Shown piece by piece: positions 418-56,866 of a DNA stretch of 64,000 nt. Numbering within the stretch: the first letter of the stretch is position 1; each line of letters opens with the position of its first letter. A model generated the notes under the pieces. The model did not search any database. It worked only from the letters and a program-made list of their open reading frames with translations, and had not been told where the DNA came from. The translations under genes were made by a program, and so were the position numbers. This DNA comes from Granulicella aggregans (GTDB lineage: Bacteria; Acidobacteriota; Terriglobia; Terriglobales; Acidobacteriaceae): positions 1-64,000 of the forward strand of contig NZ_JACHIP010000014.1 of assembly GCF_014203275.1 (NCBI RefSeq), in the 5' to 3' direction.

Positions 418-726
418 CTAACGCATGGCGGCGGCAGTGGCGATTAGAGCGGTCGGAGTGATCAGCGCGTCGATCTGAAAGACGGGGATCGCTGCCTCTT
501 CGGCTAAGGCGCGTAGCGTGCGGCGATCTTGCTCAGGTGCCGTGTGGCAGACAATCAGCAATCCATAGGCCGTCTTCGAATCCAGCTTCGCCTGGATCTC
601 CGGCAACGCCTCCGCCATGTCAGTAGTGAACCCGGCAATCTGAAGCACGCGCCGGCGCGTATCGAGCAGGATTGGGTCCCGGCCGTAAAGCAGCAGAGGC
701 CCCGCATTGGACGGGGTTATTTGCAA
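418..726 (-). CDS. Pseudo-receiver protein with Cys at the phospho-Asp site
   Basis: A 102-residue protein with the length and beta/alpha pattern of a CheY-like receiver, starting at TTG. Aligned with the true response regulator at 9.2 kb, the acidic pair (VVDDE) is replaced by YGRDP, and the phospho-acceptor position (LISD) becomes LIVC, so Cys stands where Asp should be. It is clearly homologous to the protein at 29232-29645 (shared YGRDPILLDTRR / HGADPVLLETRR), where the same position is also Cys. It is divergent from a His-less HisKA-like peptide at 836. Seen: homology and missing acidic residues. Inferred: a non-phosphorylated signalling partner, possibly thiol-based. Function unknown. 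Confidence 0.7.
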   Translation of the reverse strand: MQITPSNAGPLLLYGRDPILLDTRRRVLQIAGFTTDMAEALPEIQAKLDSKTAYGLLIVCHTAPEQDRRTLRALAEEAAIPVFQIDALITPTALIATAAAMR

Positions 727-835
727 GGTATTGAGACAATACTATCTTTTGCGGCGAAGTGTGCTCAATCCGACATAAACGCATCGGACGACGAAGGGGT
801 CACACAAAGAGCCACATCGACCTGAAACGAGGAAC

Positions 836-1027
836 ATGGACGATAACCGAAATAGTCTGGAAATTCTCGTGAACCTGATCTATCTGGCGAAACACAACAC
901 CGGCGATGCCGCAGCAGTTGAGCATTACCTCTCGCAGGCGGAGGAACAGGTTTCGCGGCTTGTCGCTATTTCTCGTCAAAAAACGGACCCGCTGCTGGCA
1001 AGACCGGCCGCCTCTAGTGCGTCATAA
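836..1027 (+). CDS. Small HisKA-like dimerisation peptide without the His
   Basis: A 63-residue protein. Its first 45 residues match the HisKA dimerisation/phospho-acceptor helices of the two histidine kinases in this window: LEILVNLIYLAKHN against LEAVTNLLYLARTD, and AEEQVSRLVAISRQ against ADQELSRVSQIVSH. The H-box His falls on Asp 2 or 3, so it cannot be phosphorylated in the usual way. There is no ATPase domain. The start ATG follows a GAGGAAC site. A homologue lies at 29786-30001, again beside a Cys-type pseudo-receiver. It ends 10 bases before the 85-aa gene at 1038, so the two probably form an operon. Role inferred: kinase decoy or receiver-binding scaffold. Confidence 0.65.
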   Translation: MDDNRNSLEILVNLIYLAKHNTGDAAAVEHYLSQAEEQVSRLVAISRQKTDPLLARPAASSAS

Positions 1028-1314: not shown

Positions 1315-1638
1315 TTAGTCCCGCCCCGGCTGCGCGGCGAACCAGTCAGCATAGGGTGTGTTTTTGGCCAAGTGCCGATTCCAGTCCTGCGCGCCGTCCG
1401 TCCACCAGACCGGGCCGCGTTCGCCGAGCGCCTTCTTGGCCGCGTCGACCCGCTGCCGCGCCCTTTCCCTGCCCTCTTCGTCGCCAGCGCGCATGGCGCG
1501 GCCCTTATCCCGCCTGGCTTCCATCAGCGTGTGCGTGAGCTCCTCACGGCGGTCTGCCGGCAGGCCGGGGTTGGAGCAGCGCCACAGGCGGCCACGCACG
1601 ACGAAATAGCGTCCGTCCGGCGTGACCGGGTACTTCAT
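1315..1638 (-). CDS. Conserved 107-aa protein coupled to SRAP
   Basis: I place the start at 1638 because this ATG overlaps the stop of the SRAP gene (ATGA arrangement), which implies translational coupling; the open frame continues further upstream only as a shadow. The protein begins MKYPVTPDGRYFVVRGRLWR, a beta-rich start, then a highly charged helical part (roughly 30-75) and a Trp-rich end (GPVWWTDGAQDW). I recall similar small proteins from alphaproteobacteria, with no assigned function. A role with SRAP in dealing with damaged DNA is inference from the overlap only. Confidence 0.75.
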   Translation of the reverse strand: MKYPVTPDGRYFVVRGRLWRCSNPGLPADRREELTHTLMEARRDKGRAMRAGDEEGRERARQRVDAAKKALGERGPVWWTDGAQDWNRHLAKNTPYADWFAAQPGRD

Positions 1639-2363
1639 CCGACCGAGCTTCGAACTGGAAACGTTGCAAGCGACGCGCCGGGATTGGCGATCATGTCTGG
1701 GCCGTTGTTTGAGGGCTTGCCGACCATGGGATTGGCCTCGTGCATCTCCATCGCTTCCGCCTCGTAAGGCCGCAGGAGATCGACTGGCAGGCGTTCGGTC
1801 TCCCCGCGATCGAGCCAGCGATCGTAATCGCGCGCGTGCAGCATGACCGGAATTCTGGAGTGTATTTGGGCCATCAGCTCGTTTGCTTCGGTCGTCACCA
1901 TGGCGAACGACTGTATCCACCTGCCGGTGTCGTCTTTCCATGCGTCCCATAGGCCCGCAATGGCAAAAGTATTGCCGTTGCTCATTTCCATCCGGTAGGG
2001 CTGTTTCGGCGGCTTCCCTGCTTCCGGCCACTCATAGATCCAGCTCGCCGGAACCAGGCAGCGACGCTTCTTCATTGGCTCGCGCCAGCTCGGGGATGAT
2101 TCGACCTTATCGGCGCGGGCGTTGATGGTGCGCAGGTTCTTGATGTCGGCAGCGCTCTTCGTGAAAAACGGGATCAACCCCCATCGCGCCATGACCAATT
2201 CCCTTTCACCGGTCTCGCGGTTTTGGCGGATGATCGGCTGATCGGTCGAAGGCGCGATGTTGTAATCCGCGACCGGAAACGCCATGTCCGGCAATTCACC
2301 ACTGACGTTAAATTGTTCTGCGATCTTTTGCTTGTCGCCGCGCCTTCCGTAGCGTCCGCACAT
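1635..2363 (-). CDS. SRAP domain protein (HMCES/YedK family)
   Basis: A 242-residue protein of normal family length. SRAP proteins form a thiazolidine crosslink between Cys2 and abasic sites in single-stranded DNA and protect them. The key residues are all visible: Cys2 (MCGRY), Asn35 in YNIAPS, Glu111 in YEWPEAG and His168 in HSRIPV. It is the first gene of an overlapping pair with the 107-aa gene and starts 3 bases after the stop of the 84-aa gene, so the three are probably one operon. Ku lies 1 kb away, which makes this a small DNA-repair neighbourhood. Codon use is GC-rich and the style is proteobacterial, so transfer is possible. Confidence 0.93.
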   Translation of the reverse strand: MCGRYGRRGDKQKIAEQFNVSGELPDMAFPVADYNIAPSTDQPIIRQNRETGERELVMARWGLIPFFTKSAADIKNLRTINARADKVESSPSWREPMKKRRCLVPASWIYEWPEAGKPPKQPYRMEMSNGNTFAIAGLWDAWKDDTGRWIQSFAMVTTEANELMAQIHSRIPVMLHARDYDRWLDRGETERLPVDLLRPYEAEAMEMHEANPMVGKPSNNGPDMIANPGASLATFPVRSSVG

Positions 2364-2366
2364 GCT

Positions 2367-2621
2367 CTAGACCTCGTTGCAGTCGCTGCAGTTCGCGAAG
2401 TGATCGAGGAAGGCGTGCCACAGCGGATGCACGCGCAACTCTTCGTCGGGCGGATCGCAGAAGCCGTATCGTTCGGCAATGGCGTAGAGGCGCGGCGCGT
2501 CTTCGGATAGTTGTCGAAGGAAGGATAGCCCTTCAGTGCAGGCAGGATATTCGTCCATTATCCATTGCGCGGCGAAGTGGAGCTCGGCAGGCGGCGTGTT
2601 TGGCATAGCGCATTCTTTCAT
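2367..2621 (-). CDS. Small protein with C-terminal C-x2-C-N-E motif, copy 1
   Basis: An 84-residue protein (start at 2621, or the next Met at 2606). Conserved points are WIMDEYPACTEGL near residue 20-32, HPLWHAF near 65 and the end CSDCNEV. Two further copies in the window, both with broken frames, lie at 28807-29039 and about 61472-61701, and keep the Pro-x-Cys and Cys-x-x-Cys-Asn-Glu features. The Cys pair could bind metal or form a disulfide, but no named family is recognised. It sits upstream of SRAP on the same strand with a 3-base gap. Confidence 0.65.
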   Translation of the reverse strand: MKECAMPNTPPAELHFAAQWIMDEYPACTEGLSFLRQLSEDAPRLYAIAERYGFCDPPDEELRVHPLWHAFLDHFANCSDCNEV

Positions 2622-2776
2622 GGCGATGGACTGTTTTAACGACCCATTCCACCCTCAATCGGGCAATTTTCGAGGTGCGGCACAACTTGCAAATAAGTCT
2701 TGCTACGCTTCCCGGAGGTGCGGCAACACAACTCAAATAGGACGCCTAGCCATCGTATGTCGAGAGGTGACACACA

Positions 2777-3211
2777 ATGGCAGTCGAAGTAAGCAGCTCA
2801 ATTAAAACCGTAATAGAGGTCCTCCATGATGGACATCAGGGCTTCGCCAAAATTGGGGAGCATCTGGAAGATCCGTCGGCGAAGGCGTTCTTCCTTAAGG
2901 AAGCCGAAACTCGTCAAACCTTCGAGCATGAGCTAAAGACCGCGGCCGGATTGAGTGGCGAGGATGTCGGTGGCACTACCGCCGGTACCGTCCATAGAGT
3001 GTGGGGCGACGTGAAGGCGCATCTGGGCGGCGGAGACCATACTCTTCTCGACACCGCCGAGCAAGGCGAGGATGCAGCAAAGAAGGCGTATAAGGAAGCT
3101 CTTGAAGACAGCGATGTCACGATAGCTGTAAGAGAAGTCCTCGTAAAGCAGCAGTTTCATATCGTCGCTTCACATGACAAAGTGAAGGCACTTCGGGACA
3201 GCAAGGCATAG
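2777..3211 (+). CDS. PA2169-type four-helix-bundle protein (DUF2383)
   Basis: A 144-residue, almost fully helical protein of the ferritin-like DUF2383 family. Visible features are VIEVLHDGHQGF near the start, several Glu/His-rich helices (FEHELKTAAG) and VREVLVKQQFHIVASHDKVKAL at the end. Members often accompany stress-response genes and their activity is not established. The 5' end of a second copy survives as a fragment at 12903. A strong UUCG hairpin follows the stop. Intact and of family length. Confidence 0.85.
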   Translation: MAVEVSSSIKTVIEVLHDGHQGFAKIGEHLEDPSAKAFFLKEAETRQTFEHELKTAAGLSGEDVGGTTAGTVHRVWGDVKAHLGGGDHTLLDTAEQGEDAAKKAYKEALEDSDVTIAVREVLVKQQFHIVASHDKVKALRDSKA

Positions 3212-3233
3212 TTCAACGTTCTTTTCCGCCAGC

Positions 3234-3253
3234 AAGCCCTCTTCGGAGGGCTT
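3234..3253 (+). terminator. UUCG-capped hairpin after the DUF2383 gene
   Basis: A perfect 8-bp stem (AAGCCCTC / GAGGGCTT) closed by a C(UUCG)G tetraloop, 22 bases after the stop. There is no strong T run, so termination strength is uncertain. Confidence 0.6.
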
Positions 3254-3341
3254 CTGCTTGCCTAGAACCTTCTAAGTATGGGCAATCGCAAGACATCCAT
3301 CGCCCTGCCGCCCGAATCTGATCACTGAACAGAGGTGCAAC

Positions 3342-4259
3342 ATGGCACGTCCATACTGGTCAGGTCAGGTCCAGATCTCACTCGTCTCATTCGGTGTCAG
3401 CCTATATGTGGCGACGGAATCGAAGAGCAACATCAGCTTCCACCAAATCAGCCGGAACACCGGCGAGCGCGTGCGGCACCAAAAGGTACTGGAGAGCGCT
3501 GCTGAGACCGGTAACCAAATGCCCGGTGCCGTGGTTGAGAAGAACGAGATCGTCAAGGGCTACGAGTACAGTAAGGGCCGATACATCATCATCGAGCCGG
3601 AGGAACTCGACAACTTGCGGGTGCCTTCCAAACACACTATCGCCGTCTCCCAATTCATCGAACAGGCTGAGCTGAATCCGGAATTCGTCGAGAAGCCGTA
3701 TTTCGTCGTTCCAGAAAATGCGGCTCAGGCCGAAGCCTTTGCGGTAGTGAGGCAGGCTCTGCTCAAGAGCGGCAAAATAGCTATCGGCAAGATCGCATTC
3801 TCCGGTCGCGAACATATCTTCGCTCTGACACCGGCAGGTACTGAAGGGCGAGGAATGTTGGGCTATACGCTCCGGTACCAGAATGAGCTTCGCAACCAGA
3901 TGGATTATTTCAGGGACATCAAAGAAGCCGAGATAAGCGAAGACTCCCTGGAACTGGCGGAAGCCCTGATCGCGAAGAAGTCAGCCAAGTTCGACCTGAG
4001 CAAGTTTGAGGACGGATATGAAGTAGCGGTCAAAGAGCTGGTCGACGCCAAGATCAACCACCTGCCTATTCCCGCCGACGAGATTCCCAAAGTCCGGCCG
4101 GCGAATTTGGTCGACCTGATGGATGCGCTTCGAAAGAGCCTCGGCTCAGAGAAGCCAGTGCCAAAAAAGCCTTCGATAAGCGAAAAGTCTTTGCCTTCCA
4201 AAGGCATTGGCCTGGTGAAGACACCTGCCAAGGCCGCCGCGAGACGCAAGTCCGCCTAG
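3342..4259 (+). CDS. ku: Non-homologous end-joining protein Ku
   Basis: A 305-residue bacterial Ku. The N-terminus MARPYWSGQVQISLVSFGV is the typical Ku start, followed by the beta-barrel DNA-ring region and the conserved LRYQNELRN and AKFDLSKFEDGYE segments. The C-terminal 50 residues are Lys/Pro/Ala-rich, as in the extended tails that help DNA binding and LigD recruitment. Ku homodimers bind double-strand ends and recruit LigD. No ligase D gene is in the window, so its partner must lie elsewhere. An AGAGGTG site precedes the ATG. Confidence 0.95.
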   Translation: MARPYWSGQVQISLVSFGVSLYVATESKSNISFHQISRNTGERVRHQKVLESAAETGNQMPGAVVEKNEIVKGYEYSKGRYIIIEPEELDNLRVPSKHTIAVSQFIEQAELNPEFVEKPYFVVPENAAQAEAFAVVRQALLKSGKIAIGKIAFSGREHIFALTPAGTEGRGMLGYTLRYQNELRNQMDYFRDIKEAEISEDSLELAEALIAKKSAKFDLSKFEDGYEVAVKELVDAKINHLPIPADEIPKVRPANLVDLMDALRKSLGSEKPVPKKPSISEKSLPSKGIGLVKTPAKAAARRKSA

Positions 4260-4282
4260 CTCCGAACAAAATGCAAGGTTTC

Positions 4283-4316
4283 GTGGGAAGTCTCTCGATT
4301 GAGCTCTCGATCCCAC
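4283..4316 (+). terminator. Possible hairpin after ku
   Basis: GTGGGA and TCCCAC form a 6-bp stem around a 22-base loop that itself repeats TCTCGA. Weak, with no T run directly after. Confidence 0.3.
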
Positions 4317-4441
4317 AGACGTTTCGTATTAGCAGATGATTACGATGTTAAGTCAAAGCAGGTTTTTTGCACTCGTGGCTAAGAATCAGAACTGCTAAAG
4401 AATAGAGCAGCCCCGGTTTGGCCTCTTCGTGTTGTGGGTGG

Positions 4442-5198
4442 CTAACGCAGCGTCGGACTCAATTGCTCCATCCTCCAGACGGGACCGCCCTCGTAAAGAG
4501 CTCCTTCCTCGCGAACGAACGCAGGCGGCTTGCCGTCCTGCAGCCAGATATGAAGTCGGGTGGTCGCTTCCGAATGACGGGTGCAACGACTCCAGCGAGT
4601 TGACGTGGAGCGTAAAGTCTGTTGCCTTGCGTCGAAGGGTTCCGACACTGAACGCCGTTGTGCCTGTGGGTTTAATAGAAACATGGATCAAACGAGGCTT
4701 TTTGCCAGCAACGATGTAAGAAACCTTTGTCTCCGCGGTTGACGGAGAGATGTTCACGAGCAGGTTTGGTGGGAGCCCATTCGATACGTCTTCGGGCAGA
4801 TCAATGTGCGTTTGAGTGTCGGTTCCACCCTCGTCGCGCCAGATGAGTTCGCCATCTAAGGAGTTGATCAGAAGGTCAATCGGCTTTGGAAACCACGGGC
4901 CATGTTGTCTATGGTGATCCGAGAGAAGGCGGAACACGCCTTTTTGGGAAAAGATCGTCTCATCGTCGTCGATTGAGCCGTCGCGAAAGTGGAAGGTCAA
5001 TCTTGACGTGACCTGATTGCCGCGCACAGTCTGGGTCGACTCGCCGGTTGCAATGATCTTTCCGTCAAAAGTCCTCAGCTCCAGGAATCCGTGAGTTGAA
5101 CCTTGCGGATAGCGCACGCGGATCGTCTCTGCACTTGCTATGAGGGCTACCGTTGAAATGAGCAGGGCTGTTCCGAACCATGTCCTGGAAAAAAGCAC
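4442..5198 (-). pseudogene. Secreted protein of unknown function, frameshifted near the C-terminus
   Basis: The frame from 5198 starts with a clear signal peptide (hydrophobic stretch ending ASAETIRVRYPQG) and reads well for about 210 residues, with SIDDDETIFSQKGVFRLLSDHH in the middle. Near 4555-4590 the sensible reading moves to another frame, which gives RLHIWLQDGKPPAFVREEG and GGPVWRMEQL, matching the C-terminus I recall for this family in soil bacteria, before a stop at 4442. The uninterrupted first frame instead runs into an Arg/Ser-rich tail that looks non-coding. One base lost or gained explains it. Function unknown. Confidence 0.65.
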
Positions 5199-5687
5199 AT
5201 GGCCTCGACTTCGCCGCAGCGGATTCTATGTAGTCTCTTCGTATAGGGGGCGCAACGGACTATCTGGATGCTAAAACTCAACTTCTAAAACTTGACTCGT
5301 TATTTAGTCGGTGCGCCGCTAAGCACGTTATGGCTACTGAGCGGCCGCACGGGACTGCGCCATGTCGCTCATGCGGAGGTCAGTCTCCGCACTTCTCGCA
5401 CCAATAATTCTGGGCCATCCATGGCTTCGACTTGCGAGTCTTCGACACTCAAATTACTTGGCAATCTCGCCGTAGCGTGGATCACGACGAGGATCTTCGA
5501 GGCTGGAGACTCGCGGTGAGTGAACTCTTACTTTCTTGTTCATCCACTCCGATGCTAGAGCAAAGCACGTTCAGGTCCGTGCGCGTGGTTGTCAGAAATT
5601 GCTCAACGCGCAAACGATCCGTGGCCGTCTCAGGAGAGATCCCGTTCCAAAGTTCACTCTCGCCCTGGGGGGAATCGATCCTCGAGA
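5199..5687. other. Intergenic, no gene supported
   Basis: Several short overlapping frames on both strands have no motif or ribosome binding site. It holds the upstream region of the 4442-5198 gene and the end of the phytochrome transcript. Confidence 0.4.
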
Positions 5688-8318
5688 TCATATACCACTA
5701 CGTAGGGGTGGGAGCAAATTATCACTTGGCTTGAATGGCAGGGTCATCTTCAATTGGGCTCCTTCGCCCGTCTTGCTTTCCGCGACCAGGGTGCCTCCGT
5801 GTCGTTCTACAATCTCTTGCGAAATGTAAAGCCCCAGCCCGTTTCCGAGATCTCCTTTGGTGCTGAAGAACGGTTGGAAGATAAGCTTTTTTATCTCTTC
5901 ATTCATACCCGGTCCACTATCGCCGACAACAAATTCTGTGTTCCCCTCCCTTGAGCATGCTGACAGGCTTACATGACCCCCAACCTGCACGGCATCGAGA
6001 GCATTCGAAAAAAGATTCACAACGACCTGCCGAATCTGTCCCAGGACACCGAAGAAGTGCGCTTCCCGTCCGATAACCGTAACCGTTACGTCGCGGTTGC
6101 GAATCTTGCCAGCGAATAGGCGCAAGACGTCATCGAAGAGCGCTCCCGCAATTCCTTCCTCTGCACTTTGCGAGCTTTCCTTCGACCAACGAAGCGTTTG
6201 TTTGGTGATTCCGGAGATCCTCTCCAGCTCATGATCTGCCATTGCAATGTAGGCGATTGCAGGATCGTTTCCACGTACCTCCTGGCTGAGAAGATAGTGA
6301 ATGTTGGTGATTGCTTCGAGCGGGTTATTGATCTCGTGAGCGATGAAACTCGTCATGCGCCCCGTGAGCGCAAGCTTCTCGGTCATCTTGAGAGCTAGCT
6401 CTCGCTCGCGGCGTTCAGTAAGATCCGTAAAGGTGCCTACCCAACCGGCCCGAACTCCACCCGCACCCTGAAAAGGTAGAGCTCTCACGAGGTTCCATTG
6501 ACCTGCGTCACCGTCTCCATCGTTTATGCGCAGTTCGACCTCAAACGGAGTCTCTGTCGCGATCGCATTTACCCATGCAATCCGGCAGCTATCCTGATCT
6601 TGGGCCGTCAGTTGATCCTGCTCGTACCAAATGCCGCTGCCTCTAAGGCCTCTTTGCCTCCATCTCTTATTGACGTAAGTTAGTTGCCCGTCGTCCCCGG
6701 CAGCCCATATAAGGTTCGGCAGGGAGTGTGTCAATTGCTCAAAACGTGCTTCGCTGAGTCCTACAGCCTCTTCGGCACGCTTAAGGCTGATCGTCATAAC
6801 AGCAGTACGAAACTCCTGGGCTGATTGAACCTCCATGTCAGTCCACGGAACGCTGTGTCCATGCACCCGCTCTTGCCACGCGCCAAAGGAATTCCGGGGA
6901 TGCAAGCCTAGACCCTGATCTCCGAGCTTGACCGGTTCTCCGGCCCAGGTGACCGTACTAACAACCTCCGGGCGAAACCACATCAGATAGCTTTGCCTCA
7001 CGTCTGAGAGGCGCACCGCCAGGAACCCGCTTGCTTCATTCCTGATCCGTCCGGCCCAATCACACACGTCCTGCATATAGCTCGTCTGATAGAGGTTCGA
7101 ATGAGGTTGAGCATCCATCCATGCGGTCAACTGGATGACGTCCGTTTTCGTCGGAGTGCTCCCACCCAAAATGCACCTACCGTCCATAATGAGGGCGGCG
7201 CCGTTCGCGTTGGTCACCTGCTGTAGTTCATCAATTCTGGACACAAGTGCGGCCACATAGTTGTGCTCCGCAGCCATTTGGGTGAGCAGATTTCGTTGTA
7301 CAGAGTGAAAGTGTAGAGCCCTTTCAAGCTCCGTTGCGCTCCGGAAGGCGAGCAGTTGCGTACTGACCATCTTCGTCAGCAAATCACATGCGCTCCGGAC
7401 CACGTATGGCACGCTTCGCGGTTCAGCGTGATGACAACTGATCAGTCCCCAGAGACGTCCTTCGAAGACGATGGAAATGGACATCGAGGCCACCGTTCCC
7501 ATGTTTTTCATGTACTCAAGATGAATGGGCGAGACGCTGCGAAGAATCGAGGATGAAAGGTCAAAATCCTTCATCTGTCTCGAGGCGGCTCCCTTTAGGG
7601 GCGAGGGGGTATAAACGGCGTTCGGGATGATCCTCACTGTATTCGCAACGTACAGCTCTCTGGCCTGCTTAGGAATATCGCTGGCCGGGAATCGAAGATC
7701 GAGATAGCTTGGCAGGACCCCATCGTTCTCCTCAGTGAGAACGGTCCCGTTGCCCGACTCATCGAAGCGATAGAGGAGGATGCGGTTGAAGCCGGTGAGA
7801 TCCTTGACTTGAGTTGTGATTGCCCGGCAAAGCGCCATCTCGTCTCCGAGCTTGCTCAGCTTCCCTACAAAATTAGTAATGACAGCATTCATCAACTCCG
7901 GACTAACCAACCGGTCGACCCGCTCGAACTCAAGCACACGTCGTCCGTCCACCAGATGTGTGACAACGCTGTACAGATCCTGCCGAAGAGGAAACGACCC
8001 GAGATAGGTGATTTGACCGGCGGCCTCACTATTGTGGACAAGCGCCCGGACCACCGCGAGAACCTCGCGTTCAAGCACCGTCTCAACGGGCGTACCCAGG
8101 ATGAGTCGTAGAGGGACTTCGAGGAACTCTTCGGTATTTTCACTCGCTGCGACTACTGATTCGTTTCTCTCGTCGAGCAACAGCAGAAAGCCATGTCTCT
8201 GGATACTCCCCGGGATCCTAATGGGTTCGTCTTCGCAGTTCTCGATCGTAGTCCGGATCTCGTCTGCCGACTTCGACATCGACGAATGACTGCCTGTGCC
8301 CGCTTCATCTTTGTTCAT
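5688..8318 (-). CDS. bphP: Bacteriophytochrome histidine kinase
   Basis: An 876-residue photoreceptor kinase. Order: PAS_2 (about 25-125) with Cys28 in NCEDEPIRIPGSIQRHG, the usual biliverdin-attachment Cys; GAF (about 150-320) with PASDIPKQAR and the chromophore-pocket His in SPIHLEY; PHY (about 335-520) with the tongue motif PRNSF; an added PAS domain (about 535-650); HisKA with the phospho-acceptor His in AHEINNPLEA; and HATPase_c with NLFSNALDAV, GDSGPGMNEE and GNGLGLYIS. It should sense red/far-red light and phosphorylate a response regulator, perhaps the one at 9.2 kb. The frame is intact although the heme oxygenase just upstream is broken, so biliverdin must come from elsewhere if the protein is functional. 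Confidence 0.95.
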   Translation of the reverse strand: MNKDEAGTGSHSSMSKSADEIRTTIENCEDEPIRIPGSIQRHGFLLLLDERNESVVAASENTEEFLEVPLRLILGTPVETVLEREVLAVVRALVHNSEAAGQITYLGSFPLRQDLYSVVTHLVDGRRVLEFERVDRLVSPELMNAVITNFVGKLSKLGDEMALCRAITTQVKDLTGFNRILLYRFDESGNGTVLTEENDGVLPSYLDLRFPASDIPKQARELYVANTVRIIPNAVYTPSPLKGAASRQMKDFDLSSSILRSVSPIHLEYMKNMGTVASMSISIVFEGRLWGLISCHHAEPRSVPYVVRSACDLLTKMVSTQLLAFRSATELERALHFHSVQRNLLTQMAAEHNYVAALVSRIDELQQVTNANGAALIMDGRCILGGSTPTKTDVIQLTAWMDAQPHSNLYQTSYMQDVCDWAGRIRNEASGFLAVRLSDVRQSYLMWFRPEVVSTVTWAGEPVKLGDQGLGLHPRNSFGAWQERVHGHSVPWTDMEVQSAQEFRTAVMTISLKRAEEAVGLSEARFEQLTHSLPNLIWAAGDDGQLTYVNKRWRQRGLRGSGIWYEQDQLTAQDQDSCRIAWVNAIATETPFEVELRINDGDGDAGQWNLVRALPFQGAGGVRAGWVGTFTDLTERRERELALKMTEKLALTGRMTSFIAHEINNPLEAITNIHYLLSQEVRGNDPAIAYIAMADHELERISGITKQTLRWSKESSQSAEEGIAGALFDDVLRLFAGKIRNRDVTVTVIGREAHFFGVLGQIRQVVVNLFSNALDAVQVGGHVSLSACSREGNTEFVVGDSGPGMNEEIKKLIFQPFFSTKGDLGNGLGLYISQEIVERHGGTLVAESKTGEGAQLKMTLPFKPSDNLLPPLRSGI

Positions 8319-8325
8319 TGCTCAT

Positions 8326-8929
8326 TCACTCCCCGCACTCCAGATGTTGCGTTGTTTCAGATAAGAAGGGTCGCGAGTTCGGACGTTTCATCCAATCGCC
8401 AGACACTTGAAACATCTCTCGAGCCGCTTTCATGGCAAGTTCTGATTGCTCGTCGGGAATCCTTGTTCGCAAGACTTCACAGAACTCTCTCCACAGTGAA
8501 TCTGTGCGTGAGGCGTGGCCGCGAAAGAATGCGCTCCCGCAACCGGCCTCCAGGCCCAAGCTCAGCTCTACATTCTTCGCGATGATCTGGCCACCAACGT
8601 AGGCCCTTCCATGACGTACATGCTGCCAAGCAACTCCGCTTCTAGAGTCATGCCAGGTAAAGTCACCTGCTCTACGCCACGATCCTGAACGCCAAAGAAC
8701 TTGAGGTCTTCCTTAATCACACCAAGCCTTGTTCTAGCCGAAAGACCTCCTTGCAGCCACTGCGGAGCTCGCTGTGCTGCCGCCTGCTCCCACGCAGAGA
8801 CGATTTCGTACATCCGAAGTAGGCAAATGAGGTACTCGTCCCGTTGTAATGTGGAATCATCAAAGGCATGATTCTTTCAACGGCCTCATGCTCTAGGGAC
8901 GTCTCGCGCCTCAGTCGTTCAACATCCAC
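8326..8929 (-). pseudogene. bphO: Bacteriophytochrome heme oxygenase, two frameshifts
   Basis: Three successive frames together give one heme oxygenase. The first starts at a GTG with a GGAG site and reads MDVERLRRETSLEHEAVER, with the proximal His in SLEHEA. The second continues with RDEYLICLLRMYEIVSAWEQ and runs to LLGSMYVMEG. The third gives YVGGQIIAKN and GLEAGCGSAFFRG up to the stop. The joins are near 8840-8860 and 8600-8608. Heme oxygenase makes biliverdin for the phytochrome, and bphO-bphP order is standard. The 8-base gap to bphP suggests one operon. Either true inactivation or sequence error. Confidence 0.8.
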
Positions 8930-9200
8930 AATGGCACTCCTCTAAGACCGCTCAAGTTCAATCCACTTGTGGATCCGTCTCGGCTGTCTGATTCCAAGAG
9001 CAGAAAGATAGAGACTGGCCCAATCATGGACTACTTTTCAGGTGCGTGCCGCCTTTTGTCAACGCGCCAGCAGCGTTGGACTCTAGAGAAGACTGTGTCC
9101 CCGCGGACAGACAAGGCCCGCGGATGCAGCTATCATAGTTTTCTCTCTACACACAAGCCTCGAAGCAGTTCGCTCTCGTTTGTGTCGGCCGAGGTACTCA

Positions 9201-9608
9201 TTGTCCAATAAGTCAGCTCCAATGGTGTTCGTTGTAGACGATGAGATCGTCATCGCCGAAACTCTCGTCACAATCCTCAAGAGATGTGGCTTCGAGGCAA
9301 CTTCCTTCAACGATCCGCTGAAAGCTCTAGCAAACGCCGAGGTTGGCGCGCCGGACATGCTCATTTCCGATGTAGTCATGCCGCAGATATCCGGGGTGGA
9401 GCTTGCTATTCGCCTCAAGGCTCTATGCCCCAGTTGCAAGATTTTGCTCTTCTCGGGACAGGCACAAACAGCTAATTTGTTAGAGAAAGCTCGCGAACTG
9501 GGCCACGACTTCAACTTACTCACGAAACCCGTCCATCCCAGGGAGCTCCTCCGTCAGATCCGCGAACAACACGATGGCTGGATGCCGGGGGAAATGACTG
9601 GAACATGA
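9201..9608 (+). CDS. Single-domain response regulator
   Basis: A CheY-like receiver without an output domain. The acidic pair is in FVVDDE, the phospho-acceptor Asp in LISDVVMP and the switch Lys in LLTKPVHP. I prefer the TTG start at 9201, which has GAGG six bases upstream; the frame could begin at 9180 and a Met lies at 9222. It is divergent from bphO/bphP and convergent with the histidine kinase at 9.8 kb, so either kinase could be its partner. Confidence 0.9.
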   Translation: MSNKSAPMVFVVDDEIVIAETLVTILKRCGFEATSFNDPLKALANAEVGAPDMLISDVVMPQISGVELAIRLKALCPSCKILLFSGQAQTANLLEKARELGHDFNLLTKPVHPRELLRQIREQHDGWMPGEMTGT

Positions 9609-9657
9609 ACGGCTACGCCGAGCATCGCCTTATAGAAGCGAACTCGAAGAAATGGTA

Positions 9658-9683
9658 ATCATCACTAATCTTTCACTGATGAT
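9658..9683. terminator. Possible bidirectional terminator
   Basis: ATCATCA and TGATGAT form a 7-bp stem between the convergent response regulator and histidine kinase genes. A T6 run follows on the plus side around 9695. Confidence 0.4.
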
Positions 9684-9782
9684 GGTTTGGCCTGTTTTTT
9701 GTGTCAAAGCACGTCGGGACGCTGTAAAGAGGCCCTGCAACGCTTTTCTTCACTCGGGCATACATTGAAAGACGATTCTACG

Positions 9783-11303
9783 CTAAAGGCCTACATTCAA
9801 TGGGATGAATAGCATGAACACTGTCCCGCTCTTCCCGGATGTAATGCTGGATCGTACCCTTAAATCGCCATGATGCTTCTCGATGATCCCCCAGGATATC
9901 CAAAGTCCCAAGCCTGTGCCGTTGATACCTTTAGTTGTATAAAAAGCATTGAAGATTTGGCGTGAGATGTAGGCGTCCATCCCGTGGCCAGTGTCAGCAA
10001 TGGTGATGCGGATACCGGCTGCGCCCGTTTTCCTGGAGTGCGAATCACTTGTGTGGATCGTCAATCTTCCGCCACTCTTCATAGCATCCACAGCGTTGCC
10101 AACCAGATTGTTCAAGACCTGACGTATCTCTCCCTCGAAGCAAGTGGCGAGGGCTACGCTTCGCCGTCGCACTTTCAGGCTGATGGCTGAGTTCTGAAGC
10201 CGTCCTCCAAAGAGACCCAATGTTGGTTCCAACAGTTCATCTGCCGAGACAGCGCGGGGATTGGTCGATTGACGGTGGAAACGCAGGGTGTGGCTTACGA
10301 TTTGGGAGACCCTGGAGAGCTCTTGATCTGCCGTATCAAGCAATACTTTCATCTCAGGCGAAACTGCTGCGTCCGTTCGAGCCAGATACAGAAGATTGGT
10401 TACGGCTTCCAAGGGGTTGTTGATTTCGTGCGAGATCGAGGCAGCCAGCCTACCCACAGCAGCGAGCTTTTCGTTCTGTATCAATGCCGCCTCGGAGCGT
10501 TTTTGCTGATCGATGTCCGTAACGGAAACTACACCTCCTGTCACTTCGCCTTGAACGCTAACGATGGGTGCCGCTGCCAGACTGATCCAAGCTTGTGTTC
10601 CGTCTCCACGCTCATAGAGATACTCCTCTGCAGGCAGCGCGTGTCCCGCGCTCATGGCTCTCGGCAGGGGAAATTCTGCTCCTTGAACTCGCCTCCCGTC
10701 GCCATGGAAGGCTACCCATTGTCCGTGTTCCTCAATGTCTAGGCTCTTCCGTAAGGGATGTCGCAAAATCTCATCAAGTCGCTGATTGCCTCTGATGATC
10801 TCCCCAGAAGCCTTCGCCAGCACCACACCTACAGGAAGGTTATCGAGCATTGCTTCCAGTGTCTCTCGCTCGTGCTTCAGCTCAGCAACGACGTCCCGGA
10901 CCTCATACTGCTTGATTCGTGCCCGAAGAGCAGCTCTAACGCTGCTGACCAGAGTCGCAGTGCGGATGGGCCGCTCAAGCAAAACAGGCGACCCGAGGGG
11001 AGCCCGCTCTCCTTGGAGCGCGATGCTATGAACGGTTTCCCGCCCGCTTCCTGTCAAGATCAAAATGGGAAGGTCGGACCAGTGGGGCTGATTTTGAAGA
11101 AATGCTCCAATCTGCCGAATAGCGTCCAGGCCTAACGCCTCTTCCGCGATGAGAAGGGGACCGAGCGGGTCCATACTTGCATCGTCCAAGCGTAGCGAAG
11201 AGAGACTCACAGTCTCCGCAGGGACGCCGCTGCGATTGAGAAGATTCGTTACTAATTCCGCGTCGCGCCCGGTGGGCGCGATCACCCGCACCACAAGACT
11301 CAC
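9783..11303 (-). CDS. Histidine kinase with degenerate N-terminal receiver and PAS domain
   Basis: A 506-residue kinase. Residues 1-125 have a receiver fold, but the phospho-acceptor position is Ala/Glu (LLIAEEAL) and the switch Lys is replaced (LLERPI), so this domain is probably not phosphorylated. A PAS domain (about 145-265) follows, then HisKA with His in SHEINNPLEA and HATPase_c with NLVGNAVDAM, DTGHGMDAY and GTGLGLWIS. The start overlaps the stop of the KaiC-like gene by 4 bases, so the two are co-translated and probably work together. No membrane segment is visible, so a cytoplasmic sensor is likely. Confidence 0.92.
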   Translation of the reverse strand: MSLVVRVIAPTGRDAELVTNLLNRSGVPAETVSLSSLRLDDASMDPLGPLLIAEEALGLDAIRQIGAFLQNQPHWSDLPILILTGSGRETVHSIALQGERAPLGSPVLLERPIRTATLVSSVRAALRARIKQYEVRDVVAELKHERETLEAMLDNLPVGVVLAKASGEIIRGNQRLDEILRHPLRKSLDIEEHGQWVAFHGDGRRVQGAEFPLPRAMSAGHALPAEEYLYERGDGTQAWISLAAAPIVSVQGEVTGGVVSVTDIDQQKRSEAALIQNEKLAAVGRLAASISHEINNPLEAVTNLLYLARTDAAVSPEMKVLLDTADQELSRVSQIVSHTLRFHRQSTNPRAVSADELLEPTLGLFGGRLQNSAISLKVRRRSVALATCFEGEIRQVLNNLVGNAVDAMKSGGRLTIHTSDSHSRKTGAAGIRITIADTGHGMDAYISRQIFNAFYTTKGINGTGLGLWISWGIIEKHHGDLRVRSSITSGKSGTVFMLFIPLNVGL

Positions 11304-12808
11304 TCAGGCCTCGTTGTCGCGTTTAGCGCAGGGTTGATCGAGTCAGGAATTCCTGTGAGAACCCCGCGAAACTCCTTGAGCGGTCCCCCTACTTCCAACC
11401 CACCTTCTCCAAACTTGAATTCGCGTAGAGTACGCTCGTGACGCCCGATCCGCTGTTTCAAGACAGAAATGACCTGACGTATCTCTCCTTCAGCTTCGAA
11501 GTACCGCAAAAGCACGACGGTGTCCGCCAAATAGCTTACATCTATCTCCGTGTGCATATTACCGACAAGTCCGTGTTGTGTGAGAATGATGAACGTGATC
11601 ACGCCCTTTTGATTCAGGAAGGCGATCAACTCATGAAGTTGGAGGAGTAAATCTCGCTCCCCTGTCATCGCATTGAGAAAACCGTTCAGACTGTCAATGA
11701 CGAGGATCCTTGTGTCCTTCTCCTCGACATCAGATTTGATCTGCCAGATGAACTCTCCGGGCGAGAGTTCCGCAGGATCGACTTGGGACATCGATAGGGT
11801 CCCACGTTTGATCTCCTCGCCAACCGCGAGGCCCAAATCTTCAGCCCTCTCTCTAGCAGTACGGAGCACCTCATCAAACGCGTACACGATGGCCCGGTCA
11901 CCCCGCTTTGCCGCGGCGTAGGCGAATTGCATCGCCAACGTGGACTTGCCCACGCCAGTTGGACCAATAAGGAGCGTGGAGGATCCTCTATTGATACCAC
12001 CGCCAAACATGCTGTCGAGAGAAGGAATTCCACTTTTCGCGCGTTCTGTAGGGAACGTGCTCTCGTGCTCGTTTGCGATCAGACGTGGGTAGATTCTTAC
12101 CCCACCAGTTTCGATCGTGTAGTCGTGAAAGCCTTCTCGAAACGAGCTCCCTCGAAGCTTAAGTATCTCGATCTGCCGCCGCGTCGCGCCGTAAGACTGC
12201 GGAACTTTGTCCAGCCGGAACACTCCGTGAGCAATGCTCTGCAGTTGCATGTCGCTGCCCTCCGCTGACCGATCGTCGAGGAGAAGGACAGTGGTATCTC
12301 GACCCGCAAAGAACTGCTTCAACGCCAGAAGCTGCCGGCGGTAGCGCATCGTGTCTGCGGCTAGCAACCGCAACTCCGAAAGCGAATCGATGACCAGACG
12401 AGTTGGTTTTCTCTCTTCGATCAATTCTGTGAGTTTCTGAATTGTGAAAGCCAGTTCCACTTCGCTTGGATGGAAGACCGTATATTGCTGATCAGGGCTT
12501 AGGCTGGCTTCCTCCGGAATGAACTCGGCGATCGACAGATCTTCATTTTTCCAACCGTGAGACCGCGCCGAGGCCTCAAGTTCGCGCTTCGACTCCGAAA
12601 GCGTCACGTATAGTGCTGCTTCTCCGGCCTTGATCGCCGTGCGGATGAATTGAAGCGCCACCGTGGTCTTTCCAGTGCCCGGGATCCCTTCCAGGAGATA
12701 CATCTGCCCTGAGGGCAGCCCCCCAGACAGTATGTCGTTTAGGCCTTGAACGCCTGTGTCGATTCTTGGAGGCAAATCAGCGATAGCCGTGAGCATACAG
12801 TTCGTCAT
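11300..12808 (-). CDS. KaiC-like two-domain RecA-fold ATPase
   Basis: A 502-residue protein with two KaiC/RAD55-type domains, each with a Walker A motif: GIPGTGKTT near residue 45 and GPTGVGKST near 280. The Walker B-like stretches are TRLVIDSLSEL and TRILVIDSLNGF. It has the two-lobed size of KaiC, but KaiA and KaiB are absent. In non-cyanobacterial genomes such ATPases often sit beside histidine kinases, and here the kinase gene overlaps by 4 bases. Role inferred: ATP-dependent modulation of that kinase; no evidence for a clock. Confidence 0.9.
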   Translation of the reverse strand: MTNCMLTAIADLPPRIDTGVQGLNDILSGGLPSGQMYLLEGIPGTGKTTVALQFIRTAIKAGEAALYVTLSESKRELEASARSHGWKNEDLSIAEFIPEEASLSPDQQYTVFHPSEVELAFTIQKLTELIEERKPTRLVIDSLSELRLLAADTMRYRRQLLALKQFFAGRDTTVLLLDDRSAEGSDMQLQSIAHGVFRLDKVPQSYGATRRQIEILKLRGSSFREGFHDYTIETGGVRIYPRLIANEHESTFPTERAKSGIPSLDSMFGGGINRGSSTLLIGPTGVGKSTLAMQFAYAAAKRGDRAIVYAFDEVLRTARERAEDLGLAVGEEIKRGTLSMSQVDPAELSPGEFIWQIKSDVEEKDTRILVIDSLNGFLNAMTGERDLLLQLHELIAFLNQKGVITFIILTQHGLVGNMHTEIDVSYLADTVVLLRYFEAEGEIRQVISVLKQRIGRHERTLREFKFGEGGLEVGGPLKEFRGVLTGIPDSINPALNATTRPE

Positions 12809-29231: not shown

Positions 29232-29645
29232 TTAGCCTTTGGGATACGCCACCAGGACCAACGAGCGCACGGCTCCTAATTTCGGACTAATCATTTCTCG
29301 GGTCGACCAGTGTCTGACCTGAATAACAAAACGTTCGGGACCGTCAAAGGCGTGGAAAACAGCGTCGGCATCAAGCATCTCTGAGCTTGTGTCAAGCCGG
29401 GGGGCGACTACCAAGCATTTGATCTTGGGATGAAGGGCGTTGGAAGCACGTATGTCTCTCTGTTGTGAGTCTGGCGGGAGGCTTGAGCAGACGACGAGAA
29501 GATCGGGTCGCTTCGTCTGCATCAGATCCGCCGGAATGGACCCATCGAGCACCGTCTCTACAACGAAACCGTTCAATGAAAGTATTTGGCGACGGGTCTC
29601 CAAGAGAACCGGGTCGGCACCATGAATCAGGATTTGCTTCGCCAT
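29232..29645 (-). CDS. Pseudo-receiver protein with Cys at the phospho-Asp site, copy 2
   Basis: The Met at 29645 has GAGG seven bases upstream and the protein has a receiver-like length. HGADPVLLETRRQILSLNGF aligns with the copy at 418-726. The phospho-acceptor strand reads LLVVCSSLP, again Cys in place of Asp, and the acidic pair is missing. The end after KCLVVAPRLDTSSEM is longer than in copy 1. The His-less HisKA-like gene lies 140 bases upstream on the same strand, so the pair could be one transcript. Probably not phosphorylated; role unknown. Confidence 0.7.
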   Translation of the reverse strand: MAKQILIHGADPVLLETRRQILSLNGFVVETVLDGSIPADLMQTKRPDLLVVCSSLPPDSQQRDIRASNALHPKIKCLVVAPRLDTSSEMLDADAVFHAFDGPERFVIQVRHWSTREMISPKLGAVRSLVLVAYPKG

Positions 29646-29785: not shown

Positions 29786-30001
29786 TCAAGACTTCAGCCC
29801 CAGAGTGGCCGCCAGCCTCGATACTTGCTCCTCAGCAGTCGTCATGTATCCGACGACCTTCTGACTGTCCTCGGATTCACGCTTCGTAAGGTAAATCAGG
29901 TTTGCGAGGATCTCAAGTGCGATATGGGCTCCTTCGTCCATGTGCTGGTTGACCATCATCGCTCCCCGAGACCCTATGACCTTCGAGCCGTCCTTCAGCA
30001 T
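29786..30001 (-). CDS. Small HisKA-like dimerisation peptide without the His, copy 2
   Basis: 71 residues from 30001; alternative starts at 29956 (GGAG five bases upstream) and 29941, the last matching the N-terminus of copy 1. LEILANLIYLTKRE and AEEQVSRLAATLG align with copy 1 at 836 and with the HisKA helices of the two kinases in the window. The H-box position carries Glu or Asp. No catalytic domain. It lies next to the copy-2 pseudo-receiver, which repeats the gene pairing seen at the left end. Confidence 0.6.
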   Translation of the reverse strand: MLKDGSKVIGSRGAMMVNQHMDEGAHIALEILANLIYLTKRESEDSQKVVGYMTTAEEQVSRLAATLGLKS

Positions 30002-30046: not shown

Positions 30047-30331
30047 TCAGTCTTGCCACCGTCCACCGATCTTGCACTTAACCTCCTCAAAGGCATATCT
30101 GTTCGGGAATTCCACTGTTTCACCAACCCTCAACCTGCCGACAAGGTGACTCGCGAGTTCAAGAGAGACGACTTGCCCGAACTCCTGTTCAAGCGTTCCG
30201 GTATTTACAGCCCACCATTCGTGTAGCTCGGTCTCGGACTTGGCGATAAAGTGGACTGTCTCCAGGTGGCCTGCAAACTCGCCCTCGCTCAATAGTCCAG
30301 GCATCACCGTCAGTTTGAATGTTTGGTTCAT
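30047..30331 (-). CDS. Hypothetical protein, second gene of an overlapping pair
   Basis: 94 residues, no family recognised. Composition is balanced, with no membrane segment or Cys. It starts inside the stop of the gene upstream (4-base overlap at 30328-30331), which supports both as real and co-translated. Confidence 0.55.
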   Translation of the reverse strand: MNQTFKLTVMPGLLSEGEFAGHLETVHFIAKSETELHEWWAVNTGTLEQEFGQVVSLELASHLVGRLRVGETVEFPNRYAFEEVKCKIGGRWQD

Positions 30332-30702
30332 CGTTTGCTCCCGGTGAGCTTTCCGTACGGGAGATCGCCTAGCAGAAATGCCTTAGCGATCTTCTGCTTC
30401 GCAGCCTTGATCCTTACGGCCACAATCCTAAGCCCAGATGACATATGAAGGGTTGCCGAAACCCCTGTGTTTCGCTCCGTAGGGCCGACGCCCCACGAGA
30501 CTTCTTCTCGGGACAGCAGCATTCCAAGTTGTTCCAGCGGAACTCCGTCCAAAGCGGCTTCTACCATTGCGAGTTCGTCATGAAGTTCGGCAACGCGCGA
30601 ATATCTACCTCCACTATCGGAAGAAGTATTAGCTTCAGATGTGAGCAAGGTAATGAGCTGCATTCGTTGTTCGGCAAGAGACATTGCATGGGCCCTTGTC
30701 AT
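30328..30702 (-). CDS. Hypothetical helical protein, first gene of an overlapping pair
   Basis: 124 residues. The first 70 look helical and charged (RVAELHDELAMVEAALDG), followed by a Gly/Ser-rich beta-like part and a Lys-rich end. The start may be the Met at residue 6. Unrecognised. Paired with the gene at 30047 by a 4-base overlap. Confidence 0.5.
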   Translation of the reverse strand: MTRAHAMSLAEQRMQLITLLTSEANTSSDSGGRYSRVAELHDELAMVEAALDGVPLEQLGMLLSREEVSWGVGPTERNTGVSATLHMSSGLRIVAVRIKAAKQKIAKAFLLGDLPYGKLTGSKR

Positions 30703-48127: not shown

Positions 48128-49213
48128 TCAGGCAGCTTGTTCATAGAACGGGATGTACGGCTCTTGCGTGTTCCAGAGGTGATGAAGCAGCACGGCCAGC
48201 TTGCGTGCTACCGCAACGACTGCCTTACTCTTGGCCTGCTTGCCACCTCGGGCGGCTAAGTGCAGACCCCACTGTCGCAGCGCCGAGTCTCGTCCGTGCG
48301 GTCGAAGGATGTGGTTCGAGCACTCGATCAGTAGACTTCGGAGATAGGCGTTGCCGGCATGAGTGATGCCAAGCTGAGGATCATGATCTCCGGACTGACT
48401 TCGACGCGGCCGTAGGCCCAGATAACAACCAACATCGCGACTTCGTCCGAACCGCTCCTTGCTTCCGAGCGTTAGCACGAAGGTTAAGGCGGTGAGGTGG
48501 CCGACGCCGTGAACCTTCAGCAGCGCCTGCGTCTCCGGATACTCGGTCTGGCCGAGCTGCTGTATCTGCCGGTCGTACAGCTTGATCTTTACTGTCATCT
48601 CCGCGATCTGCTGAAGTACCGGACCGAGCGCCTGTGCCAGTCCAGGCGGTATAACGGCCAGGCTGCGCTGGGCGAAGCACGTTGTGGCGGAGGCAGGCAT
48701 ACGGTGGCCGCACGACTTCGTCAGGCCACGAACGGCGTTCACCGCAGCGGTACGCAGTCGCACCAGCAGCGCTCGCGCACGGATCAGAGTCAGAGCCTGC
48801 TGTTGCTCGACCGTGCGATGGGCGATCGGACGAAGGATGTTCGGATCAAGCCGGGCATATCTTGCCAGCTTCTCAGCATCGACCTGATCGCTCTTCCGGT
48901 CACTGTGGGAGATCGCCCGCAACTCGCGTACGTTCGCCACGATGACTTCGTGACCAAGTTCCTGCAACTGTGCGCTGATCCAGATCGAGTGTGTCCCAGC
49001 CTCCATTGCAACCCGCGCTGGAGCCACGACAGTGAACCACTTCTCGATCGCCTTCGGGGTAGTTCTGAAGCGGCCACGGTCGACCACTTCTCCGTCCTGG
49101 TTGAGGGTGCAGTAATGACTCCAGACATCGCCAATGTCGATGCCGATCGTTAACTCGACCTTGGCTTGCCTGCGTGGAACTTCAGCGATGAGGTGTTGCG
49201 CTGGATTCTTCAT
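48128..49213 (-). mobile_element. IS110-family transposase
   Basis: 361 residues, full length. The N-terminal DEDD (RuvC-like) domain starts TIGIDIGDVWSHYCTL and holds KSDQVDAEKLARYARLD; the C-terminal transposase_20 part has LLKVHGVGHLTALTFVL, GCYLGLRPRRSQSGDHD and THAGNAYLRSLLIE with the conserved Ser. IS110 elements move by a bridge-RNA guided reaction, so non-coding flanks of the element would carry that RNA. The frame is intact and could be active. Confidence 0.92.
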
Positions 49214-51827: not shown

Positions 51828-51966
51828 AACGACGCGAAGGTTTATGGCGGAGCGTATGAAAGCGATCATCAAGACGACCAACGCAGATCACCTTCCAGCT
51901 CTGACCATGCCGAAGCCCGTTATCGACATCGTTCTTGAGGCCGCCACATCAACTCTCGCAGGCTAA
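51827..51966 (+). pseudogene. C-terminal fragment of an alpha/beta hydrolase
   Basis: The plus strand right of the IS91 break reads RRFMAERMKAIIKTTNADH and PKPVIDIVLEAATSTLAG then a stop. This resembles the end of small alpha/beta hydrolases, with the catalytic His in ADH. The rest of the gene is absent, so the transposon end or a deletion removed it. Confidence 0.55.
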
Positions 51967-55572: not shown

Positions 55573-55707
55573 GATTTCCCTCGATAATGGAAGCGGAGTA
55601 TGAACCATGCTCTGAGATGGGGCAGCCAATCGGCCTGTTGTACAGACTAATATTTTTCGAGAGATTTTAAGTTTCATCGAAGTCGGCCTTCGCCATTTTC
55701 TCGAGTG

Positions 55708-55998
55708 CTGACCTCATATCCGGTATGGCCAAGTCAAGATGCTTCTTGACACGCGCCGCCTCGCCTCCTTCAAACGGTCGGTCTATCTGTCCATGCGACC
55801 CTGGCTTTACGAGAGGTGCAGGCGAAGCTGGCAAATCGATTAAGCCTATGGGTTCCTGATCGTCTGTCACACCGTGTCCACGGATTGACGGCAGGTCCTC
55901 GCTGATCTGGCCGGAAAGGCCGCTATTCTGGTCTATCAGGTCGAAACCCTGATTCCTCCCGCGATCTCATTGCACAGGCAGCCGCAGCCAGTCGATAA
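55708..55998 (+). pseudogene. Cys-type pseudo-receiver, decayed copy 3
   Basis: Pieces in three frames align with 418-726: VKMLLDTRRLASF with PILLDTRRRVLQ, LREVQAKLANRL with LPEIQAKLDSKT, AYGFLIVCHT with AYGLLIVCHT, RQVLADLAGKAAILVYQVETL with RRTLRALAEEAAIPVFQIDAL, and the end LIAQAAAASR. The LIVCH Cys is kept. Stops and indels make it inactive. Confidence 0.7.
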
Positions 55999-56131
55999 TC
56001 TATGTAGCTTATCCGACATAAGGGCGTAGAATTGCATTGGGCCTAAGCCAACTGCGCGGAAAGCTACCACTCAAAGCCGTCTTTGGTGTCTGCCGGACGA
56101 CCTCCTGGGTCGTTCAGAAGGCGAGACAGTC

Positions 56132-56866
56132 ATGAACGGCGGCGGATTTGAAAACGGGTTGCTGCGCAGGTTCGACGGAGAGATCATCCGCCGCCTCGAT
56201 CTTCGACCGCTTGAATTGCCGGTAAATCACGAGATCGAATTTCCCGGCACTTCCATCGATCATCTGTTTTTCATCGAAGAAGGCATCGCCTCGATGACGG
56301 CGACATTTGAAGATGGGTCTCAGGTCGAGATCGCGCTCGCAGGAGCCGAGGCTGTACTCGGTACATCGGTGCTGATGGGCACAAAACGCAGCCTGAACCG
56401 TGTCTACATGCAGGTTGGCGGGCATGGCTTCACCACCCTGACAGCACGGGCCACTTGCGAATTCAAACGCGGCGGCCTCTTCCAGGACCTGACGCTTCGC
56501 TACCTGCAGGCACAGTTCATTCAGTCGGCGCAGACGGCTGGCTGCAATGCCCGTCACTCCATAGAACAACGCCTGGCGCGATGGCTTCTGCTGTGCGCCG
56601 ACCGGAATGGCGGCCGCGTCCTGCCTCTCTCGCAGGAAAACATGGCCGATATGCTCGGGGTGAACCGGACAACGCTGACCGTCATCGCCGGGCAGTTTCA
56701 GCAACGCAGGCTGATCCAGTACACGCGCGGCACGATACAGCTGCTTGACCTCCAGGGGCTGCGGGATGCCGCCTGTGAGTGCTATCTCGTCGTGAAGAAC
56801 CACCTGCCCAACCTGACGGTGTATGACGACGGAATGCTTGAGGATGCGCCCATCTTGTACCGCTGA
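56132..56866 (+). CDS. Crp/Fnr-family transcriptional regulator
   Basis: 244 residues. An N-terminal cyclic-nucleotide-binding-like beta-barrel (LDHLFFIEEGIA-like SIDHLFFIEEGIASMTATFE, VEIALAGAEAVLGTSV) and a C-terminal winged helix with LSQENMADMLGVNRTTLTVI as recognition helix. No Cys set for an iron-sulfur cluster, so it is not FNR-like in sensing. The signal is unknown. Intact frame; could control nearby stress genes. Confidence 0.92.
   Translation: MNGGGFENGLLRRFDGEIIRRLDLRPLELPVNHEIEFPGTSIDHLFFIEEGIASMTATFEDGSQVEIALAGAEAVLGTSVLMGTKRSLNRVYMQVGGHGFTTLTARATCEFKRGGLFQDLTLRYLQAQFIQSAQTAGCNARHSIEQRLARWLLLCADRNGGRVLPLSQENMADMLGVNRTTLTVIAGQFQQRRLIQYTRGTIQLLDLQGLRDAACECYLVVKNHLPNLTVYDDGMLEDAPILYR

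Follow-up and report, generated by a model that had tools for sequence, protein, structure and literature searches.

The window examined here is a stretch of 64,000 bases, the beginning of a 65,646-base contig in a genome of 7.3 Mb whose named relatives belong to Granulicella, a member of the Acidobacteriaceae, and to Edaphobacter. Close to its start, two small genes diverge from one another across 109 bases, one encoding a receiver-like protein with a cysteine at the position of the phosphorylated aspartate (pseudo-receiver A) and the other a short peptide related to the DHp helices of histidine kinases (stub A). A sequence-only reading of this DNA had listed both open reading frames, and we found them as described (Table 1). 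It had also pointed out that the motif LIVC of receiver A corresponds to LISD in the canonical receiver at 9.2 kb, that a second receiver-stub pair lies at 29.2-30.0 kb, and that a decayed receiver at 55.7 kb retains the cysteine. These observations hold as well, the decayed copy still showing a legible YGFLIVCHT despite its stops and frame change. Two histidine kinases encoded in the same window could possibly serve as binding targets of the pair.

Table 1. Receiver and stub genes of the window, with neighbouring signalling genes used for comparison
Feature	Position	Strand	Remarks
Cys-type pseudo-receiver A	418..726	-	102 aa, TTG start
His-less DHp stub A	836..1027	+	63 aa, ATG start
Phytochrome-type histidine kinase	5688..8318	-	HEINNPLE box
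Canonical single-domain receiver	9180..9608	+	LISD; acidic pair and Lys present; comparison protein
PAS histidine kinase	9783..11303	-	HEINNPLE box
Cys-type pseudo-receiver B	29232..29645	-	start MAKQ; full-length type by alignment
DHp stub B	29786..29956	-	start MVNQ; upstream of receiver B, same direction
Decayed third pseudo-receiver	55709..55966	+	stops and frame change; Cys readable
Crp/Fnr-type regulator	56132..56866	+	downstream of the decayed receiver

The intergenic space of pair A contains a 15-bp perfect palindrome, GTATTGAGACAATAC, at 728-742. Its pattern, GTATTGNNNCAATAC, has a single exact site in the 7.3-Mb genome, and one such site is not improbable at that size. Scanning positions 300-1400 yielded no promoter-like site and one terminator-like site, against 0.9 expected by chance. 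Just past stub A lies a small open reading frame (1038-1295) that recurs with 77% identity on the opposite strand at 57496-57747 and gave no Pfam match over the cut-off.

For receiver A, AlphaFold2 predicted a receiver-type fold of beta-alpha repeats (mean pLDDT 85.9) with Cys60 directly after strand 3; the acidic pair and the lysine are absent. Judging from alignment and model, the protein seems shortened, with one helix after strand 4 and the alpha4-beta5 part missing. A Foldseek search with this model returned a receiver as best match (E 7e-4) and a designed Rossmann protein at rank 3, and in a second structure comparison receivers reached a VIA Z of 12.8, behind an uncharacterized human Rossmann-fold protein in the top row (Z 13.6). 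The family aligned with canonical receivers at an hhalign probability of 99.0, and the receiver fold that had been proposed for the 102-aa protein is supported. The Pfam receiver profile PF00072 matched nine of the 21 family members scanned with an E of 0.1 or lower, the lowest being 0.0067. Receiver B scored E 0.012, corresponding to 16.3 bits against a gathering cut-off of 30.2, from which we infer that these members fall well below the cut-off, so that Pfam-based surveys would miss them.

To count residues we used 109 receivers, obtained from 115 receiver open reading frames by removing three duplicates as well as three matches of lower significance (E 1e-9 to 5e-7); among the latter, one does have an aspartate at the phospho-site. 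None of the 109 has this aspartate: the position is occupied by cysteine in 86, glycine in 21 and serine in two, and by cysteine in all six intact copies of the window's own genome. An acidic residue was found at the first position of the acidic pair in none of 107 receivers and at the second in 10, and the lysine of beta5 in none of the 98 receivers with a letter at that position. Helix 1 is highly constant (Arg in 108 and Leu in 102 of the 109), and 105 receivers have Ser or Thr two residues past the phospho-site. With a predicted receiver fold, no phosphorylatable aspartate and, in the 86, a cysteine instead, these proteins class as pseudo-receivers and Cys-type Asp-less receivers (Cys-ALR). 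The latter are already known, and the accessible part of PMC4395418 names 26 Cys sequences, clustered by their fused output domains, and places Acidobacteria second in Asp-less receivers per genome. The receivers described in this analysis resemble them in the cysteine at the phospho-Asp position (PMC4395418), but differ from those with fused outputs in being single-domain proteins, below the Pfam cut-off among the 21 scanned, with Crp and kinase or stub genes as neighbours.

Stubs align to the DHp helices of short partner kinases at an hhalign probability of 97.7, and the model of stub A is a helical hairpin; a Foldseek search with it gave no match at E 0.001, and Pfam HisKA (PF00512) matched two of the 14 members of the stub set, stub A not among them. 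The peptide covers helix 2 and the part of helix 1 that follows the His position, its ATG falling at about that position, and an ATPase domain is absent. The description as HisKA helices is hence borne out by the DHp match and the hairpin, but the peptide is not a whole HisKA domain. Likewise, the claim that the stubs are His-less holds for the H-box position itself, but stub B has one His three residues further on. We considered whether a wrong start might hide a complete HisKA domain. The ATG of stub A is the first start codon past an in-frame stop, with a GAGGA that ends two bases upstream, closer than usual; the 19 in-frame codons between stop and ATG hold His residues, but neither an ATG, GTG or TTG nor an H-box sequence, so the idea was rejected for stub A. 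For stub B an upstream extension is possible, yet it supplies no His at the H-box position. Among stubs, core columns E, N, Y, L and V are constant. The loss of phosphotransfer residues, which the earlier reading had claimed for both partners, is supported by the residue counts of the receivers and by the H box of the stubs. DivL is a large kinase-derived protein that has lost phosphotransfer and still takes part in a signalling network. The stub is like DivL in being kinase-derived and without phosphotransfer, and unlike it in consisting of little more than two helices. In the accessible part of PMC9430884, DivL is named as a pseudo-histidine kinase.

Across the window's own genome, we counted six intact and two decayed receivers and four intact pairs, which argues for pairing beyond chance. 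The intact pairs outside the window are C39 and C15, the receivers without an intact stub are C3 and C23, and C18 is the decayed receiver besides the one at 55.7 kb; seven of these eight receiver copies sit on contigs shorter than 66 kb. Between paralogues, receivers gave dN/dS values of 0.12 and 0.23 and stubs of 0.22 and 0.30, in genes that are short and at a dS of about 0.9 to 1.8, and three of the seven comparisons were saturated and gave no value. On the four comparisons with a value, we rejected the idea that the intact copies are pseudogenes. We then compared receiver and partner distances in 24 of 32 pair rows, leaving out beforehand duplicates, one near copy, a truncated partner that keeps its His and four pairs from outside the genus. 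The distances correlate (r = 0.57, Mantel p = 0.0002), which points to joint inheritance and not to contact, because linkage alone yields correlated trees. Both partners thus appear to be genuine genes that are co-inherited and subject to purifying selection.

The receiver profile, at E 1e-12, matched at least 13 of 396 genomes of the phylum, all in the window's own family, and within that family at least 63 of 200 genomes and 33 of 79 genera; these counts are lower bounds because the searches scored part of the candidates. The profile was built from 21 rows picked from Cys-type hits, and the hits L062 (Ser) and L065 (Cys) were left out of it. A stub profile, which also catches large kinases, matched in 35 of 61 genomes, but in none of the 24 among these that lie outside the genus. 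Neighbours were counted in 100 regions, chosen among the stronger matches, together with the copies of the own genome, with 600 bp as limit for kinase genes; three loci from a three-row scan of named genomes, one of which resembles L181 solely in its motif, were excluded from the counts. The genus contrasts with loci elsewhere: a kinase-derived gene is within reach for 25 of its 48 receivers, compared with 5 of the 61 others. Recurrence in other genomes had been set beforehand as the test on which the idea of a receiver-stub module could fail, and the two families do co-occur in other genomes. The pair is a conserved receiver-partner arrangement, confined to one lineage as far as searched, and its double loss is unusual.

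The 25 neighbours in the genus comprise 10 short soluble kinases of 242-291 aa, nine of them with the His, and 15 truncated stubs. When the kinase neighbours from elsewhere are included, 14 of 15 keep the His and the remaining one has Gln. Intermediate forms include this Gln kinase, which has 245 aa and a degraded ATPase, and DHp proteins of 95 and 100 aa with Arg for His. Among the truncated neighbours, the His is retained in a single one, of 42 aa; the remaining 14, spread over nine genomes including the window's own, have various residues at the H-box place, and the stub rows of genomes G002 and G416 are near copies. The stub is thus most likely the remnant of a short soluble kinase that is still encoded beside the receiver in other species. 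Probably, then, the ancestral arrangement combined a Cys-receiver with a functional kinase, which in the window has shrunk to its docking helices. Short soluble kinases are likewise neighbours of canonical single-domain receivers, in the own genome and in two relatives (L238, L239, L240). Considering only starred branches, the receiver tree requires the stub label to change at least three times; the DHp tree, poorly resolved over 42 columns, needs three changes and forces just one, and neither tree tells gain of the stub from its loss.

DHp helices serve dimerization and docking, and helix 1 of true receivers docks on them. As the sequences suggest that the receiver is unable to accept a phosphate and the stub unable to make or pass one, the reading with the best support, which we hold tentatively and at a little under an even chance, is a two-component pair devoid of phosphotransfer in both partners that would most likely act by binding. 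The pseudo-receiver would use its helix 1 to dock on DHp helices in the manner of true receivers. In an ancestral cassette of a Crp/Fnr-type gene, a Cys-receiver and a kinase, the receiver may have gated the kinase, much as Osp of Rhodobacter sphaeroides, acting without phosphate, inhibits the kinase CckA, to whose transmitter part it binds (PMC9430884). In the window, the docking platform alone would remain, and receiver and stub might bind each other without moving phosphate or, alternatively, compete for the kinases and receivers of the genome, again with no phosphate moved. Osp is the nearest experimentally tested case that we found. It is likewise a single-domain receiver-like protein without acidic pair and lysine, but, as far as the accessible part of PMC9430884 goes, it retains an aspartate along with the standard topology, and its target is an intact kinase, whereas here the residue is Cys or Gly and the partner may be a mere stub. 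The pseudo-receiver of ShkA from Caulobacter offers a second parallel in that kinase control is exerted by a degenerate receiver that accepts no phosphate, as may be the case here; however, it is a domain inside the kinase and binds c-di-GMP, and ours is a separate protein (PMC7010744, accessible part). In C. difficile, CmrT is a pseudo-receiver encoded with the working kinase of CmrS/CmrR, but it is an OmpR-family regulator with a true regulator as partner, unlike the receivers described here (PMC12632262, accessible part).

The binding reading has its limits, because five His-less stubs, one of them at a contig end, have no receiver nearby, 79 of the 109 receivers have neither kinase nor stub beside them, and gene order within pairs varies. 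In addition, a His lies at a distance of one to five residues from the H-box place in five of the 14 stubs that lack it there (winB, C15, L167, L168 and L177), possibly leaving a shifted phospho-acceptor, which would speak against this reading; none of the five has an ATPase domain. A rather unlikely alternative is that the receiver works alone or with a Crp/Fnr-type regulator, the stubs being slowly decaying leftovers of kinase partners. This would fit the 56 of 61 receivers outside the genus that lack both kinase and stub, the copy in the own genome that retains merely a 19-residue stub remnant, and the label changes forced by the starred receiver-tree branches. It fits less well with the dN/dS of the stubs (two comparisons with a value), with their constant core, and with 14 pairs across nine genomes, which would be many for mere remnants.

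The same alternative draws on another neighbour of the family. Within 600 bp, 34 of the 109 receivers have a Crp/Fnr-type gene, arranged head to head in 20, as judged from raw open reading frame ends; the Crp helix-turn-helix profile has 147 matches in 12 of the genomes, about 2 per Mb, so that chance would place under one near 109 receivers. For five receivers, a Crp-type gene and a kinase are both in reach, and at two loci of genome G011 a co-directional canonical receiver is present as well. The intact pairs A and B of the window have no Crp/Fnr-type gene nearby. These loci bear also on the thiol sensing that the sequence-only reading had suggested. Here, the cysteine in the old phospho-site would be oxidised or modified, and the receiver would change shape and pass the signal to the neighbouring Crp/Fnr-type regulator, kinase or stub. 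The cysteine is kept in 33 of 34 Crp-linked receivers, compared to 53 of 75 with no Crp gene nearby (Fisher p = 0.0017, uncorrected for relatedness), in all 15 kinase-linked receivers and even in the decayed copy of the window, and some of the Cys-type Asp-less receivers on record lie near redox or iron genes (PMC4395418, accessible part). Against a thiol switch, Gly or Ser replaces the cysteine in 23 of the 109 receivers, including four of 15 stub-linked ones, a share that may be higher given that the search profile was built on Cys-type rows, and the alignment has no second constant Cys column. We therefore consider a redox switch unlikely as a general explanation, although thiol sensing could still operate where the Crp cassette is kept. 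Of the phosphorylation-free module proposed at the outset, the folds, the residue loss and the recurrence stand, but thiol sensing is not borne out in general, and titration of the kinases at 5.7 and 9.8 kb is a conjecture.

The stub might instead act as a dominant-negative or decoy against complete kinases, forming mixed dimers or soaking up receivers, with the pseudo-receiver restraining it. The stub core does resemble kinases from other places in the own genome (best E 2e-5), and the helices used for dimerization and docking are retained; the start of helix 1 is missing, however, a stable four-helix bundle may or may not form, and we regard this role as quite improbable. Returning to action by binding, its broadest form is possible, with the balance of probability against it: in one genus, pairs that derive from a cassette of Crp/Fnr-type gene, pseudo-receiver and kinase would have given up phosphotransfer on both sides, probably repeatedly, and would persist as a binding-only Cys pseudo-receiver with a His-less two-helix remnant, regulating intact kinases or the Crp regulator. 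In related species the pair exists in graded forms, in which a receiver of this one family adjoins a complete kinase, a form lacking His or ATPase, or the two-helix stub. The on-off switching of pseudo-receivers was termed a mystery in a 2025 minireview (PMC12632262, accessible part), and such graded forms make the question testable. Among open-licence papers, searches combining receiver terms with Acidobacteria gave no hit, and those for related terms listed no title on such a receiver-stub pair.

Genome G031 contains two receiver copies, one stub-linked and the other kinase-linked, on a contig of 188,167 bases that corresponds in length and coordinates to pACIX903, a conjugative plasmid from Granulicella tundricola MP5ACTX9. 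In a plasmid search, receiver A matched only this plasmid, and receiver B and stub A gave no match; the gene table of pACIX903, which is incomplete, has neither receiver entered. The plasmid also encodes an annotated response regulator beside a paired kinase (L258:15362-15736), which has no Pfam receiver match and only a weak one to OKR_DC_1_N; this protein is perhaps another degenerate receiver. Near its receivers, pACIX903 carries a gene mix comparable to a stress-type island of the window (1635-12808 and 54985-56866), where genes for SRAP, DUF2383, Ku, the phytochrome kinase, the canonical receiver, the PAS kinase, a KaiC-like protein, DUF892 and Crp are found. The window further contains IS110-type and Y2 transposase genes at 48128-49213 and 50884-51891. 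Two small genes of no recognised family lie upstream of pair B; the one at 30047-30331 has matches in locus L155 and partial ones in L160 and L245, which are loci with stubs or kinase remnants, and the one at 30328-30702 has a match near the C3 receiver of the own genome. Finally, the C39 pair is adjoined by a gene for an HTH_37 regulator (L252:1104-1328).
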